A DNA stretch of 64,000 bases, taken from Clostridia bacterium (lineage in GTDB: Bacteria; Bacillota; Clostridia; Oscillospirales; QAKW01). The notes under the pieces are model-generated. The model was not told the origin of the DNA, searched no databases, and saw nothing but the letters and a program-made list of their open reading frames with translations. Location: the NCBI GenBank assembly GCA_017440465.1, contig JAFSHF010000016.1, forward strand, positions 1 to 64,000, written 5' to 3'. The translations under genes and the position numbers were made by a program. Positions 1,557 through 42,346 of the stretch are shown in pieces (positions within the stretch are counted from its first letter, which is position 1; each line of letters opens with the position of its first letter).

Positions 1557-3044
1557 ATGAAAAAATCTGTGTATTTATTGTTGGTTGTAGTTCTTTTGTT
1601 TAATCTGTCTGCTTGTGCTACGGCAAGAACTAATGATGTATACGCCAGTATGGAAGCGTTCGTTGAATCGGAGCCCTCCGACAATACGGTGCCCTCCGGC
1701 AATAAGGAGACTTCCGACAATAAGGAGACTTCCGGCAATAAGGAGACTTCCGACGATAAGGAGACTTCCGGCAATAAGGAGACTTCCGACGATAAGGAGA
1801 CTTCTGACAATAAGGTGACAACCGACAATAAGGAAACCTCCAACAATAAGGAAACCTCCAACAATAAGGAAACCTCCAACAATAAGGAAACCTCCAACAA
1901 TAAGGAAAACTCCAACATTAAGGAAAACACCAACAACAAGGGAACCACCAACAATAAGGTGACCTCCAACAACAAGGGAACCACCGGAAACAAGGGAACC
2001 ACCGGAAACAAGGGAACATTCAGCGATAAGGTCTTAGCCGGTTTTAAGGAGATCTTCGACAAAAAAGCCGACACTGATAAGAAGGACCCCTCCGACAATA
2101 CGGAAACAGAATCAAATGTACCGGCGCATTCGCATACGTTTGACCAAAAGAACACAGCTGAAAAGTATTTAAAATCAAAAGCAACCTGCCAAAGCGCCGC
2201 TGTTTATTATTATTCTTGTTCTTGCGGAGAAAAAGGTGCTTCCACATTCAATAAAGGCGAAAAGGCAGAGCATACATTTGACCAAAAGAACACAACCGAA
2301 AAGTATTTAAAATCTAAGGCAACCTGCCAAAGCGGTGCTGTTTATTATTACTCTTGTTCTTGCGGAGAAAAAGGTGCTTCCACATTCAATAAAAGTGATA
2401 AGTTAGAGCATACATACGATCAAAAGAACACGGATATTGCATATCAAAAATCAAAAGCGACCACAAGCAGTCCTGCCATTTATTATTATTCGTGCAGTTG
2501 CGGTGCAAAAGGGAGTTCGACATTTACATATGGAACTGCCATTTCCGGTTGGCAACAGGAAAGCAAAAAAGTGTATTGCATCAGAAAGGTTAGTCTGCAT
2601 ACAACCACGGATGATAACAAAAACTCTTGCGAAAAAGTTTATGTCGGAAGAACACTGACTGTTATAGAAACCAATGGAACTTGGTACAAGGTAAAGTATC
2701 CTTCGATTTCCCAGGGCTTTGCCTATATTATGTGTAAATATGTCACCGAGAACAAAGAAGAAACAACGTTTGATGATTATCCCGAGGATGAAATTAAAAC
2801 GGCCGTTGTTCGAGATGGAATAAAAGGCATTTATCTGTGCGAAGATTTGAGCGAAGAAGAATCAAGCCAAGCCGGATATATCACCTACGCCCAATCCCAC
2901 GACAATAACCTTCGTGTTGTGGCCATCAACCAAAAAGGAGATTGGGTAAAAGTCCGATATTGCGGATACGATTCCAAAAATAAATATCACGACGGAACGA
3001 GCCTTTACTATTGTAAAATAAATAAACTGTTGATCCAAGAATAA
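1557..3044 (+). CDS. Repeat-rich SH3-domain lipoprotein
   Basis: A 495-residue exported lipoprotein. It has a signal peptide MKKSVYLLLVVVLLFNLSAC with the lipobox LSAC, so Cys20 is the likely lipidated residue. Residues ~40-165 are a low-complexity hydrophilic stalk of hexapeptides such as DNKETS and NNKETS. Next come three 46-residue repeats beginning HTFDQKNT and containing YYYSCSCG, with paired cysteines. The C-terminal ~180 residues carry two SH3-like stretches (VYVGRTLTVIETNGTWYKVK and a second ending GDWVKVRYCGYD). This suggests a cell-wall-spanning, wall-binding or display protein. It has an AT-rich composition, a divergent repressor and its own terminator, all consistent with a regulated, possibly acquired locus. 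No enzymatic domain is visible. Confidence 0.75.
   Translation: MKKSVYLLLVVVLLFNLSACATARTNDVYASMEAFVESEPSDNTVPSGNKETSDNKETSGNKETSDDKETSGNKETSDDKETSDNKVTTDNKETSNNKETSNNKETSNNKETSNNKENSNIKENTNNKGTTNNKVTSNNKGTTGNKGTTGNKGTFSDKVLAGFKEIFDKKADTDKKDPSDNTETESNVPAHSHTFDQKNTAEKYLKSKATCQSAAVYYYSCSCGEKGASTFNKGEKAEHTFDQKNTTEKYLKSKATCQSGAVYYYSCSCGEKGASTFNKSDKLEHTYDQKNTDIAYQKSKATTSSPAIYYYSCSCGAKGSSTFTYGTAISGWQQESKKVYCIRKVSLHTTTDDNKNSCEKVYVGRTLTVIETNGTWYKVKYPSISQGFAYIMCKYVTENKEETTFDDYPEDEIKTAVVRDGIKGIYLCEDLSEEESSQAGYITYAQSHDNNLRVVAINQKGDWVKVRYCGYDSKNKYHDGTSLYYCKINKLLIQE
1668..2032 (+). repeat. Tandem 18-bp coding repeat (stalk of the lipoprotein)
   Basis: About twenty head-to-tail 18-bp units of the type AATAAGGAGACTTCCGAC, encoding N/D-K-E-T-S-x hexapeptides. 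Neighbouring copies are identical or nearly so at the 5' side (GAGACTTCC) and differ at the 3' side (GAAACCTCC, then GGAACCACC), which suggests expansion by slippage. Copy number is a likely length polymorphism. The long open frame on the opposite strand here is an artefact of the repeat. Confidence 0.85.
2133..2546 (+). repeat. Three 138-bp coding repeats (46-residue Cys-containing domain)
   Basis: Copies start at 2133, 2271 and 2409, exactly 138 bp apart. The first two are nearly identical in DNA; the third has diverged. Each encodes a module ending in YYYSCSCG-x-KG-x-STF. Confidence 0.85.
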
Positions 3045-9499: not shown

Positions 9500-10395
9500 C
9501 GGCATACAAATCATTTGTATGTTTTTGTCACAAATCATTTGTGTTTTTTCGTACCAATTCATTTGGTACACCCAAATCATTTGGGGTATAGCACACAATT
9601 CATTTGTATTTTTTGTCACAAATCATTTGTGTTTTTCCGTACCAATTCATTTGGTACACCCAAATCATTTGGGGTATAGCACACAATTCATTTGTATTTT
9701 TTTGTCACAAATCATTTGTGTTTTCGTACCAATTCATTTGGTACACCCAAATCATTTGGGGTACGGTATACAAATCATTTGTATGTTTTTGTCATAAATC
9801 ATTTGTGTTTTCGTACCAATTCATTTGGTACACCCAAATCATTTGGGGTACGGCACACAATTCATTTGTATTTTTTTGTCATAAATCATTTGTGTTTCCG
9901 TACCAATTCATTTGGTACACCCAAATCATTTGGGGTATAGCACACAAAGCATTTGTATTTTTTCGTCACAAATCATTTGTGTTTTTTCGTACCAATTCAT
10001 TTGGCACACCCAAATCATTTGGGGTACGGTATACAAATCATTTGTATGTTTTTGTCACAAATCATTTGTGTTTTTCCGTACCAATCCATTTGGTACACCC
10101 AAATCATTTGGGGTACGGTATACAAATCATTTGTATTTTTTGTCACAAATCATTTGTGTTTTCGTACCAATTCATTTGGAACACCCAAATCATTTGGGGT
10201 ACGGTAGACAAATCATTTGTATGTTTTTGTCACAAATCATTTGTGCAACGCGATTTTTGTACCAAATGAATTGGTACGGAATTGCACCAATGAATGGTGC
10301 ATAAGGGGCTTGGTCGATGGTTTGTAGGGGACGATGCCGTCATTGTACCAAATGAATTGGTATGAAACCGCCCAAATGAATTGTGCAGAAAAAAT
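9500..10395. repeat. Palindrome array B1 (AATTCATTTG box), about 0.9 kb
   Basis: About nine super-units of roughly 80-90 bp fill the gap, each containing CAAATCATTTG-type, TACCAATTCATTTGGTA and CCCAAATCATTTGGGG palindromes. All share the core A(T)TCATTTG with variable outer arms. Up to about 10250 the core reads TTCATT. From 10259 to 10386 it reads AATGAAT in the opposite orientation, including GCACCAATGAATGGTGC. All three plus frames stay open across the array because of its regularity, but there is no RBS and the predicted peptides are just the repeat translated. I see no gene here. Confidence 0.9.
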
Positions 10396-21402: not shown

Positions 21403-21670
21403 AAAAAAGCCCTTTGGCTTAAAATAAGCCAAAGGGCGAAATAAATTCGCGGTACCACCTTTGTTTACCTGCTTTTCGCAAAGCAAGCCTCACCAAGTAT
21501 CCATCAATACTCTGCCGCCGTAACGCAGCGGATGCGACGCATCTTTCAATGCGCGGCTCGCGAAAGCGTATTTCCGAAAAAGTTCTCTGCCGCCTTTCAC
21601 CAACCGGCGGCTCTCTGAAAGCAGAATCAAATTCGTACTGAGTCTTCCGTTCATTGCCTTTTGAAAATAT
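21403..21670 (-). ncRNA. T-box leader, specifier probably UUC (Phe)
   Basis: On the minus strand the T-box sequence AAGGTGGTACCGCG (21461-21448) is followed by an antiterminator arm, and by a strong terminator GCCCTTTGGCTT / AAGCCAAAGGGC with a T6 tail (21437-21403). Stem I shows CAGAGAGCCGCC-GGTTGGTG-AAAGGCGG, the classical distal loop and AG bulge. An AGTA lies on the 5' side, and GAA-CTT-TTC-GG on the 3' side. By position after GAA plus three bases the specifier is TTC at 21578-21576, a Phe codon. T-boxes raise expression when the cognate tRNA is uncharged. Specifier assignment is less certain than the T-box itself. Confidence 0.9.
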
Positions 21671-21676
21671 GAACCT

Positions 21677-21705
21677 ATTTTAACGCGGTTTTGCAAGGTT
21701 GTCAA
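21677..21705 (-). promoter_or_regulatory. Promoter of the T-box operon
   Basis: TTGACA (21705-21700), a 17-bp spacer and TAAAAT (21682-21677) on the minus strand, placing the transcript start near 21670, just ahead of stem I. Confidence 0.8.
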
Positions 21706-21761: not shown

Positions 21762-22655
21762 TTAGTTCTTTTTCTTGGTTTTGATGGCAAGGATCACTCC
21801 GCCGACAGCGATCAGCACCGCCGCGCCGAAGGGGATGAGATACCAAAGGGAGAAGGAGGGCTCCTCGTTCTTTTTCTTACCCTCGTCCTCATCGTTCATC
21901 TGCTTATCGGTGACATTGAGGTTGCCGTATTCGTCCTCTTCCACCTCTAAGCGTCCCGCTTCGGTCTTGTCCTCTTTATCATAAAGGATGACACCGGTGG
22001 TGTTACCGTCTTTATCCTTTTCATATTCCGCATCGTATTGAACCGACTCTTCGGAATTATCGGGGTAGTATTCGATCGCCTGATCGCCGTCGAAATACCA
22101 ATCGCCGCCCTGCTCTTCCTTCTTTTCTTCCTCTTTTTCGGGGGCAGGCTCGGTTAAGGTGCCGCCCTCGGCCACCCGCACCCGCGCAGGAACCAACAGC
22201 AAGGTGGGAACGGGGGTGAGCTTTTCATCGTCTTGACTGAAGGTATAATCGTACACATCGATCAGCGAGCCTTGGGCATCTTCGGGGGTGCCGATGATCT
22301 TGAAGGAGATGTTCAGCAGATCCATTGTCCCCTCCAAAAGGTTCCCTTTAACAGCGACCGCGGCGACCTTGACCATCTTTTTGCCCTCGATATCGGCTTC
22401 GGTGTTGACCACCATCAAGCCGTTGAGGTGCATCTTCTGATAATCACCGGTCGGTTGCAATACCGCAGGATCGTAGGTCAATGTGGTTTCATAGGCAACA
22501 CAGGCGGGAGCCTCTTCCACCGAGAGCACCACCTTGACCACATCCCCGACCTTTCCTTCGCCGCCCTTGAGGCGGTAGGTCATTTGGGGAGTATCCGCAA
22601 AGGCGGTGGGGGTGAGCATTAATAACGCTAAAATAAGGCATACAATTCGCTTCAT
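21762..22655 (-). CDS. Membrane-anchored cohesin-domain protein
   Basis: A 297-residue exported protein with a signal peptide MKRIVCLILALLMLTPTAFA. Residues ~25-150 have the cohesin/carbohydrate-binding jelly-roll pattern: GKVGDVVKVVLSVEEAP, the AYETTLTYDPAVLQPTG strand typical of cohesins, then a GTMDLLNISFKIIG strand. A charged Glu/Lys linker and an acidic region (~155-255) follow. The C-terminal helix SLWYLIPFGAAVLIAVGGVI and the basic tail KTKKKN anchor it in the membrane. No LPXTG motif is visible. Cohesins bind dockerins, and two dockerin-bearing proteins are encoded at 46533 and 52447. A single cohesin on the membrane would act as a receptor, not a multi-enzyme scaffold (inference). 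Confidence 0.75.
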   Translation of the reverse strand: MKRIVCLILALLMLTPTAFADTPQMTYRLKGGEGKVGDVVKVVLSVEEAPACVAYETTLTYDPAVLQPTGDYQKMHLNGLMVVNTEADIEGKKMVKVAAVAVKGNLLEGTMDLLNISFKIIGTPEDAQGSLIDVYDYTFSQDDEKLTPVPTLLLVPARVRVAEGGTLTEPAPEKEEEKKEEQGGDWYFDGDQAIEYYPDNSEESVQYDAEYEKDKDGNTTGVILYDKEDKTEAGRLEVEEDEYGNLNVTDKQMNDEDEGKKKNEEPSFSLWYLIPFGAAVLIAVGGVILAIKTKKKN

Positions 22656-30596: not shown

Positions 30597-30950
30597 AACG
30601 ATGCACAAATGAATTGTGCAAAGAGCGTACCAAATGAATTGGTACAGACTCCCAAATGATTTGGGGTACCAAATGATTTGGTAGGATAACAAAACAATGT
30701 ATTTGTGTACCAAATGAATTGGTACGCAGACATACAAATGATTTGGTAGGATAACGAAACAATGTATTTGTGTACCAAATGAATTGGTACGCAGACATAC
30801 AAATGATTTGGGGCACCAAATGATTTGGTAGGATAACAAAACAATGTATTTGTGTACCAAATGAATTGGTACGCAGACATACAAATGATTTGGGGTACCA
30901 AATGATTTGGTAGGATAACGAAACAATGTATTTGTGCACCAAATGAATTG
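30597..30950. repeat. Palindrome array B2 (AATGAATTGG box)
   Basis: Four ~80-bp super-units with GTACCAAATGAATTGGTAC, ACAAATGATTTG and ACCAAATGATTTGGT palindromes plus a constant stretch GGATAACAAAACAATG. These are the complements of the palindromes in array B1, so relative to the upstream gene the box reads AATGA(A/T)T. A further short piece of the same array is at 31207-31242, after the tandem repeats. No gene is supported inside; open frames on both strands are repeat artefacts. Confidence 0.9.
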
Positions 30951-31024
30951 GTTGCGACTGCGACCGCTGCCTGTGGTTGCGACTGCGACCGCTGCCGGTG
31001 GTTGCGACTGCGACCGCTGCCTGT
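30950..31024. repeat. Three 25-bp tandem repeats
   Basis: Copies at 30950, 30975 and 31000 of a GC-rich 25-mer beginning GGTTGCGACTGCGACCGCTG. The middle copy has one substitution (CCGGT instead of CCTGT). It starts exactly where array B2 breaks off. Confidence 0.95.
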
Positions 31025-31028
31025 GGCA

Positions 31029-31200
31029 GATGAAGGGAGCAGGTTAGCAGGTGCCGCAACACAAAAGATATCGAGCGCATCGCGCGAAGAATATTTTGAT
31101 GTTGCAAACGGGACGATGAAGGGAGCAGGTTAGCAGGTGCCGCAACACAAAAGATATCGAGCGCATCGCGCGAAGAATATTTTGATGTTGCAAACGGGAC
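31029..31200. repeat. Perfect 86-bp direct duplication
   Basis: Two adjacent copies (31029-31114, 31115-31200) starting GATGAAGGGAGCAGG and ending CAAACGGGAC appear identical over all 86 bp. Each contains GATATCGAGCGCATCGCGCGAAG. Identity implies a recent tandem duplication or an assembly artefact. Array B2 resumes afterwards. No RBS or credible gene is seen within. Confidence 0.95.
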
Positions 31201-31206
31201 GAAAAC

Positions 31207-41345: not shown

Positions 41346-42238
41346 GTTCCCGCCGCGATATCTCCAAAGAAATATCGTTACTGCTGCTGACTGTTCTTTG
41401 CCTGCTTTTGGGGCTGAGCTTTTGCCGCCAATGGTTGCCCGCCTTTGATCCGCCGCTGACCGCGCTGGTCTATGTGGTGGTCTACCTGATCCCCATCTGG
41501 ATCTATAAACGCACCCATCGCTATAAGGCAAGAGCCGCATTGCGGCTGAAATGGGTCCATCCGCGGCATTGGCTGTTCATTGTGATGTTCGGGCTTTCGG
41601 TCTGCCTGCTCTGCAGTCTGATCAATCTGGGCTGTTCCGCCTTTGCCCGCGGGGTACTGCACCTTTCCTACGGCAATGCCACCATCGTCGATTTGAGCAG
41701 TACCAATCCCGCCACGCTGTTGTTTATCGGCGTGTTGCTCCCCGCCTTTTTTGAGGAATTGCTGCTGCGGGGCTTGGTGCAGAGCGAGTATGAAAAATAC
41801 GGCGTCACTATCGGCGTCTTGCTGACCGCCCTGCTGTTTGCGTTGTTCCATACCAATCCGGTGCAGATCCCCTCGTTGTTTGTGGCAGGGGTGTGCTACG
41901 GAGTGCTGACGCTGTTGTTCGGCAGTATCTGGCCCGCCATTATCGCCCACGCCATCAATAACGGCATCGCGGTACTGCTGGCAAAATACAACGATTTTAT
42001 CCGCTACATATTGCAGGACCGCCTTTTTATCATCATCGCGATCGTCGCCTGTTTCTTGATCCTCATTATCACCCTTAAATTGTTGGAAACGACGGTGGAT
42101 CGGCTATTGGGCAAGGGCAAAAAACTCAAAAAAAGCACCCGCTCGCTTGCCTACGGCGATCCGCTGATGAGTCCGTGGTTATGGATATTTACCTTGTTAT
42201 GTATTGGAAAAATGGTATATAATGGTTTCTTTAAATAA
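41342..42238 (+). CDS. CPBP-family intramembrane metalloprotease
   Basis: A 298-residue protein with about eight hydrophobic helices. The CPBP (Abi/CAAX) motifs are present: FFEELLLRGLVQ (EExxxR), FALFHTNP (FxxxH) and AIIAHAINNGIAVLL (HxxxN). It probably cleaves membrane substrates such as prenylated or leader peptides (family knowledge; substrate unknown). Last gene of the thyX-tmk operon; array A3 starts at the stop. Confidence 0.88.
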   Translation: MSSRRDISKEISLLLLTVLCLLLGLSFCRQWLPAFDPPLTALVYVVVYLIPIWIYKRTHRYKARAALRLKWVHPRHWLFIVMFGLSVCLLCSLINLGCSAFARGVLHLSYGNATIVDLSSTNPATLLFIGVLLPAFFEELLLRGLVQSEYEKYGVTIGVLLTALLFALFHTNPVQIPSLFVAGVCYGVLTLLFGSIWPAIIAHAINNGIAVLLAKYNDFIRYILQDRLFIIIAIVACFLILIITLKLLETTVDRLLGKGKKLKKSTRSLAYGDPLMSPWLWIFTLLCIGKMVYNGFFK

Positions 42239-42310
42239 AGTGAAATTTACCCTTATGGGTAAGTGAAGTTCGCTTAGCGAGTGAAGTTTTGCCTCCGGCA
42301 AAGTGAAGTT
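42236..42310. repeat. Palindrome array A3 (AGTGAAG box), short
   Basis: Boxes AGTGAAA/AAGTGAAG occur four times, separated by TTTACCCttatGGGTAA, CGCTtAGCG and TTGCCtccGGCAA. There is no orientation flip; the array runs straight into the terminator. This is the clearest small example of the box-plus-variable-hairpin plan. Confidence 0.85.
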
Positions 42311-42346
42311 AAAAAGAACCCAACCGAGCGGTTGGGTTCTTTTTAG
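42311..42346 (+). terminator. Bidirectional terminator between the CPBP and malQ genes
   Basis: AAAAAGAACCCAACCG / CGGTTGGGTTCTTTTT with an AG loop, at the ends of converging genes. Confidence 0.85.

Follow-up and report, generated by a model that had tools for sequence, protein, structure and literature searches.

We identified a T-box leader RNA on the minus strand of a 64,000-nucleotide stretch (hereafter the window) of contig JAFSHF010000016.1 from a Clostridia bacterium of the order Oscillospirales. A T-box with its conserved motif and terminator had been proposed at 21403-21705 in the initial annotation, and a covariance-model search confirmed it, with a full-length match to RF00230 at 21663-21429 (model positions 1-219 of 219; 113.9 bits against a gathering score of 93, E 2e-24) that includes Stem I, Stem III and the antiterminator. 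The T-box sequence (AAGGTGGTACCGCG / AAGGUGGUACCGCG; 21461-21448, minus strand) holds the UGGU bulge, and an intrinsic terminator hairpin lies on the same strand at 21437-21409, with a U-tract extending to 21399 (-22.5 kcal/mol, z -6.6). This hairpin shares the 3' strand of the antiterminator, making the two structures mutually exclusive. Single-sequence folding of Stem I was uninformative (z +0.4). A candidate sigma-70-type promoter, TTGACA-17-TAAAAT, was recognized by pattern matching only (11 of 12 positions) at 21705-21677 on the minus strand. Just upstream of the leader, at 21762-22655 on the minus strand, is a gene whose product combines a cohesin domain and a C-terminal membrane anchor.

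The leader is followed on the minus strand by a compact operon in the order LIG, SSS, iorA, iorB, paaK and a double-ACT gene, and profile matches bore out all of the downstream genes listed in the initial annotation. LIG (21378-19744) encodes an AMP-forming acyl-CoA ligase that by sequence is a generic member of its family; based on the tyrosine specifier described below, the linkage to iorA and the gene neighborhood, we predict it to be a 4-hydroxyphenylacetate:CoA ligase. SSS (19721-18162), a sodium:solute symporter (PF00474), is a predicted aryl-acid importer. The alpha and beta subunits of indolepyruvate:ferredoxin oxidoreductase (IOR), encoded by iorA (18065-16332) and iorB (16328-15753), both exceed curated cut-offs (TIGR03336, 722.6 bits against 650.9; NF005325, 273.3 bits against 230). 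The start of paaK (15756-14437), which encodes a PaaK-type phenylacetate:CoA ligase, overlaps the end of iorB by 4 nt. Its product matches TIGR02155 over its full length at 527 bits, below the curated cut-off of 646, and its best match in the PDB is the phenylacetate-CoA ligase 4r1l (E 1.2e-128), so we regard it as PaaK-like rather than as a curated PaaK. The last gene (14422-13994) encodes a pair of ACT domains (PF19571) and may be an aromatic amino-acid sensor.

A terminator dividing SSS from iorA was considered and rejected: in the 96-nt gap between them, which folds into a weak A/U hairpin, we detected no minus-strand site resembling a terminator. A single transcript from LIG to the ACT gene is therefore plausible. 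Ligase and IOR genes are linked in one unit, as expected of an aryl-acid reductive pathway.

Elsewhere in the window are two tandem-repeat arrays, at 9500-10245 and 30606-31202, to which we assign, in that order, an 87-bp unit and units of 82-147 bp; palindromes of the CAAATGATTTG and ACCAAATGAATTGGTAC type are common to both. A putative secreted protein (1557-3044) contains internal repeats of 18 bp (S/T/N/K/E-rich) and 138 bp, and the small RNA Gut-1 (RF01706) was detected at 42238-42314 (54.7 bits).

The amino acid sensed by a T-box is set by its specifier codon, which by the positional rule used here is followed usually by one purine and then by the closing helix. In the window the specifier loop is closed by the helix CGGAAG (21649-21644):CUUUCG (21566-21561), and the sequence on the 3' side reads GAA-A-UAC-G, making the codon UAC (Tyr; 21570-21568, minus strand), one purine before the helix. 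An alignment of all leaders places this UAC in the specifier column. By eye, the same rule fits five other leaders of the genome whose targets have a known amino acid: those preceding trpB (UGG), pheS (UUC), ileS (AUC), a gene resembling Met-type sulfhydrylase/cystathionine synthase (AUG) and a cysteine-type unit with cysS (UGC), target names being read by eye from protein starts rather than by HMM search. The genome carries a tRNA-Tyr (G000 C8:83548, outside the window but on this contig) whose GUA anticodon complements the UAC specifier and whose ACCA end complements the UGGU bulge. The initial annotation had instead read the specifier as TTC (Phe) and proposed that the operon makes phenylalanine from phenylacetate. 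A UUC does lie near the loop, at 21564-21562, and PaaK belongs to the operon, but this triplet is paired inside the closing helix; a phenylalanine-specific T-box, which calls for a UUC or UUU specifier, was rejected because the aligned column reads UAC. We consider the phenylalanine reading of this leader extremely unlikely, although phenylalanine-type leaders do exist on the iorAB/paaK units of relatives, as described next.

Relatives of iorA come mostly from metagenome-assembled genomes of gut and rumen Clostridia, and LIG, SSS, iorAB, paaK and the ACT gene cluster with them in varying order. LIG orthologues are present in 146 of the 394 genomes of the order. We searched 100 of the LIG loci and 80 iorA loci with a leader profile and took specifiers from the aligned column, since an automatic specifier scorer proved unreliable on several leaders; 23 of the surveyed leaders passed the Rfam gathering score, and L056, L183 and one of the pair in L067 scored below it. 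A T-box was present at 28 of the 100 LIG loci. Units that start with LIG or SSS have a UAC (Tyr) leader in 31 of 32 cases, a count that takes in the window and from which one split match was removed. These Tyr leaders come from 20 genera and 11 families (order sample plus window). Units with paaK or iorA and without LIG read UUC (Phe) in all eight cases found before the prediction test described below. A Fisher test of this split (31/32 against 8/8) gave 1e-7, a nominal value because the sequences are related.

Only one of the 32 deviates, L232; its sister L231 has UAC. The two sister genomes (G312 and G348, respectively) share the same operon, the Tyr and Phe specifiers differ by one base, and prephenate dehydratase was not detected in either genome. 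The split predicts that where LIG lies apart from the other genes, the leader of the IOR unit should be of the Phe type. Among 18 iorA regions taken for this prediction test, two had a T-box (L293 and L294), both on a paaK-iorA-iorB-ACT unit and both reading UUC, and in their genomes (G391 and G284) LIG is under a Tyr leader (L241 and L247). L067 and L252 likewise combine LIG under a Tyr leader with a paaK/iorA unit under a Phe leader. Including the two from the prediction test, UUC leaders are thus found on 10 of 10 iorAB/paaK units without LIG.

T-boxes often control amino-acid transporters (PMC2494555) and some of the leaders directly precede SSS, so the leader might serve a symporter that imports tyrosine itself, with LIG and the ior genes as passengers. 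However, about nine leaders head units in which LIG is the only operon gene, suggesting that the ligase itself is the tyrosine-supply gene, and Phe leaders are found on units that open with paaK or iorA rather than with a transporter. We therefore give the transporter explanation very little weight. The nearest homologues of LIG (71-78% identity) are mostly without a T-box, indicating that tyrosine control is not universal, and these homologues must be controlled in some other way. In four loci (L029, L033, L042 and L044) LIG is missing and the position between SSS and iorA is taken by a second paralogue of PaaK (46-47% identity), as though in its place.

The co-occurrence of LIG and IOR extends beyond the operon. 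We found iorA in 47 of 48 genomes with LIG, compared with 12 of 30 without it (p 6e-9). Neither gene occurs in G003, G005 and G007, which are complete and related to the window's genus, so the module is gained or lost as a whole. Auxotrophy was rejected as an explanation for the operon, as most genomes with LIG have tyrA, pheA and aroC; among the 76 genomes tested, tyrA was found in 74, pheA in 67 and aroC in 72. The operon route is thus not essential for prototrophy: it adds to the shikimate route rather than replacing de novo synthesis. The window's assembly (65% complete) lacks tyrA, probably because the contig stops at chorismate synthase and leaves a gap there.

Given the leader, the gene content and the specifier split, we consider it highly likely that the operon serves salvage, converting aryl acids to aromatic amino acids under the control of a tRNA-Tyr-sensing T-box. 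Uncharged tRNA-Tyr would pair through its GUA anticodon with the UAC specifier and through its ACCA end with the UGGU bulge, favoring the antiterminator and allowing transcription of LIG-SSS-iorA-iorB-paaK-ACT in vivo. The symporter would probably bring in the aryl acid. IOR substrates include phenyl-, hydroxyphenyl- and indolepyruvate (PMC13285125), and, given the Tyr leader, 4-hydroxyphenylacetate is the obvious acid for carboxylation to a tyrosine precursor. LIG would convert this acid to its CoA ester, which IorAB and reduced ferredoxin may carboxylate to 4-hydroxyphenylpyruvate for an aminotransferase to convert to tyrosine. Through the PaaK arm, phenylacetate could be converted by the same IOR to phenylalanine, and the ACT protein may report the level of aromatic amino acids. 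Most likely, then, the operon genes regenerate tyrosine and phenylalanine using residual aromatic acids.

Alternatively, the operon could be catabolic, with IOR oxidizing arylpyruvates to aryl-CoA, the ligases releasing or recycling aryl acids and the T-box having an unrelated role. Oxidation of aromatic 2-oxoacids by IOR and related oxidoreductases is indeed known from gut acetogens and from fermenters (PMC13290082, PMC13285125). Against this, a T-box switches genes on under amino-acid shortage, and Tyr and Phe leaders are found repeatedly on these genes, in agreement with the ligase arm. LIG and PaaK are also both of AMP-forming types, which favor acyl-CoA synthesis (PMC13285125), not ADP-forming or Pta/Ack. 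We judge a catabolic role to be very unlikely and favor salvage, in which genes usually labeled as breakdown genes are probably supply genes. The supply logic of the initial annotation, with ior and ligase genes running reductively, gains support from the recurrence of aromatic T-boxes in at least 11 families and from parallel ligases under Leu, Ile and Val T-boxes, whereas its phenylalanine product does not fit this leader.

These parallel ligases are encoded on contig C1 of the same genome. There, a LeuA-like gene is preceded by a Leu leader (CUC) and followed by a fusion of a xylose-isomerase-like TIM barrel with an acyl-CoA ligase (L090:5403-7856), and Ile (AUC) and Val (GUA) leaders precede two N-terminal cupin-acyl-CoA ligase fusions resembling MbcS (L090:8264-10531 and L090:10944-13235, respectively). 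The first of these has an additional weak HTH match, and the two cupin fusions are possibly self-regulating enzymes. VorB/KorB/gamma genes for a branched-chain oxoacid oxidoreductase follow the T-box ligases. Relatives with leaders keep the specifiers (Leu in three, Ile in three and Val in one). The conversion of 2-methylbutyrate, which matches the Ile leader, is a classic rumen case. Rumen conversions of isovalerate and isobutyrate, from papers cited in PMC7356843, match the Leu and Val leaders. We think it reasonably likely that these systems represent a general acid-to-amino-acid salvage, in which each acid:CoA ligase has its own T-box whose specifier corresponds to the acid activated (UAC, 4-hydroxyphenylacetate; UUC, phenylacetate; CUC, isovalerate; AUC, 2-methylbutyrate; GUA, isobutyrate), the ligases share IOR/VOR and each is switched singly by its uncharged tRNA.

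The leader resembles known tyrosine T-boxes (RF00230, e.g., that of Bacillus subtilis tyrS) in its Stem I, UAC specifier, UGGN bulge and antiterminator/terminator. Those precede a tRNA synthetase, a shikimate gene or an amino-acid transporter, whereas the target here is an aryl-acid ligase/IOR operon. The proposed route is like the aryl-acid pathway of Methanococcus maripaludis (Porat 2004, as cited in PMC4162585), in which a reductive IOR converts aryl acids to aromatic amino acids beside a de novo pathway; the operon differs from that system, as cited there, in being bacterial and in having two distinct AMP-forming ligases, a symporter and, we infer, tRNA-dependent control. The rumen, the habitat of many of the homologues, is also where reductive carboxylation of phenylacetate to phenylalanine and of isovalerate to leucine was described (Allison 1962-1966, as cited in PMC7356843). 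As cited there it is known as biochemistry, to which we add candidate genes, their regulation and an amino acid for each ligase. A Bacteroides pair of IOR and AMP-forming arylacetate-CoA ligase (PMC13285125) has the same linkage and a suggested biosynthetic role, but no T-box is described for it and the direction is argued from ligase type alone. The literature searched, which did not extend to the surveys of Vitreschak 2008 and Gutierrez-Preciado 2009, describes no T-box for ior or aryl-acid ligase genes. As far as their main texts extend, the T-box surveys PMC2494555 and PMC3766115 do not mention phenylacetate genes, and the latter does not mention indolepyruvate. The parts are known, and the link of a T-box to the operon and the Tyr/Phe specifier split are probably new.

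For ior- and paaK-type genes of gut and rumen Clostridia, whose annotation points to the breakdown of phenylacetate or amino acids, the leaders give genetic evidence of the direction in which these genes work. They also provide candidate genes for the carboxylation of aryl acids and branched-chain acids, rumen biochemistry that has been known since the 1960s. The three-letter specifier codon predicts the substrate of acyl-CoA ligases that are otherwise generic.
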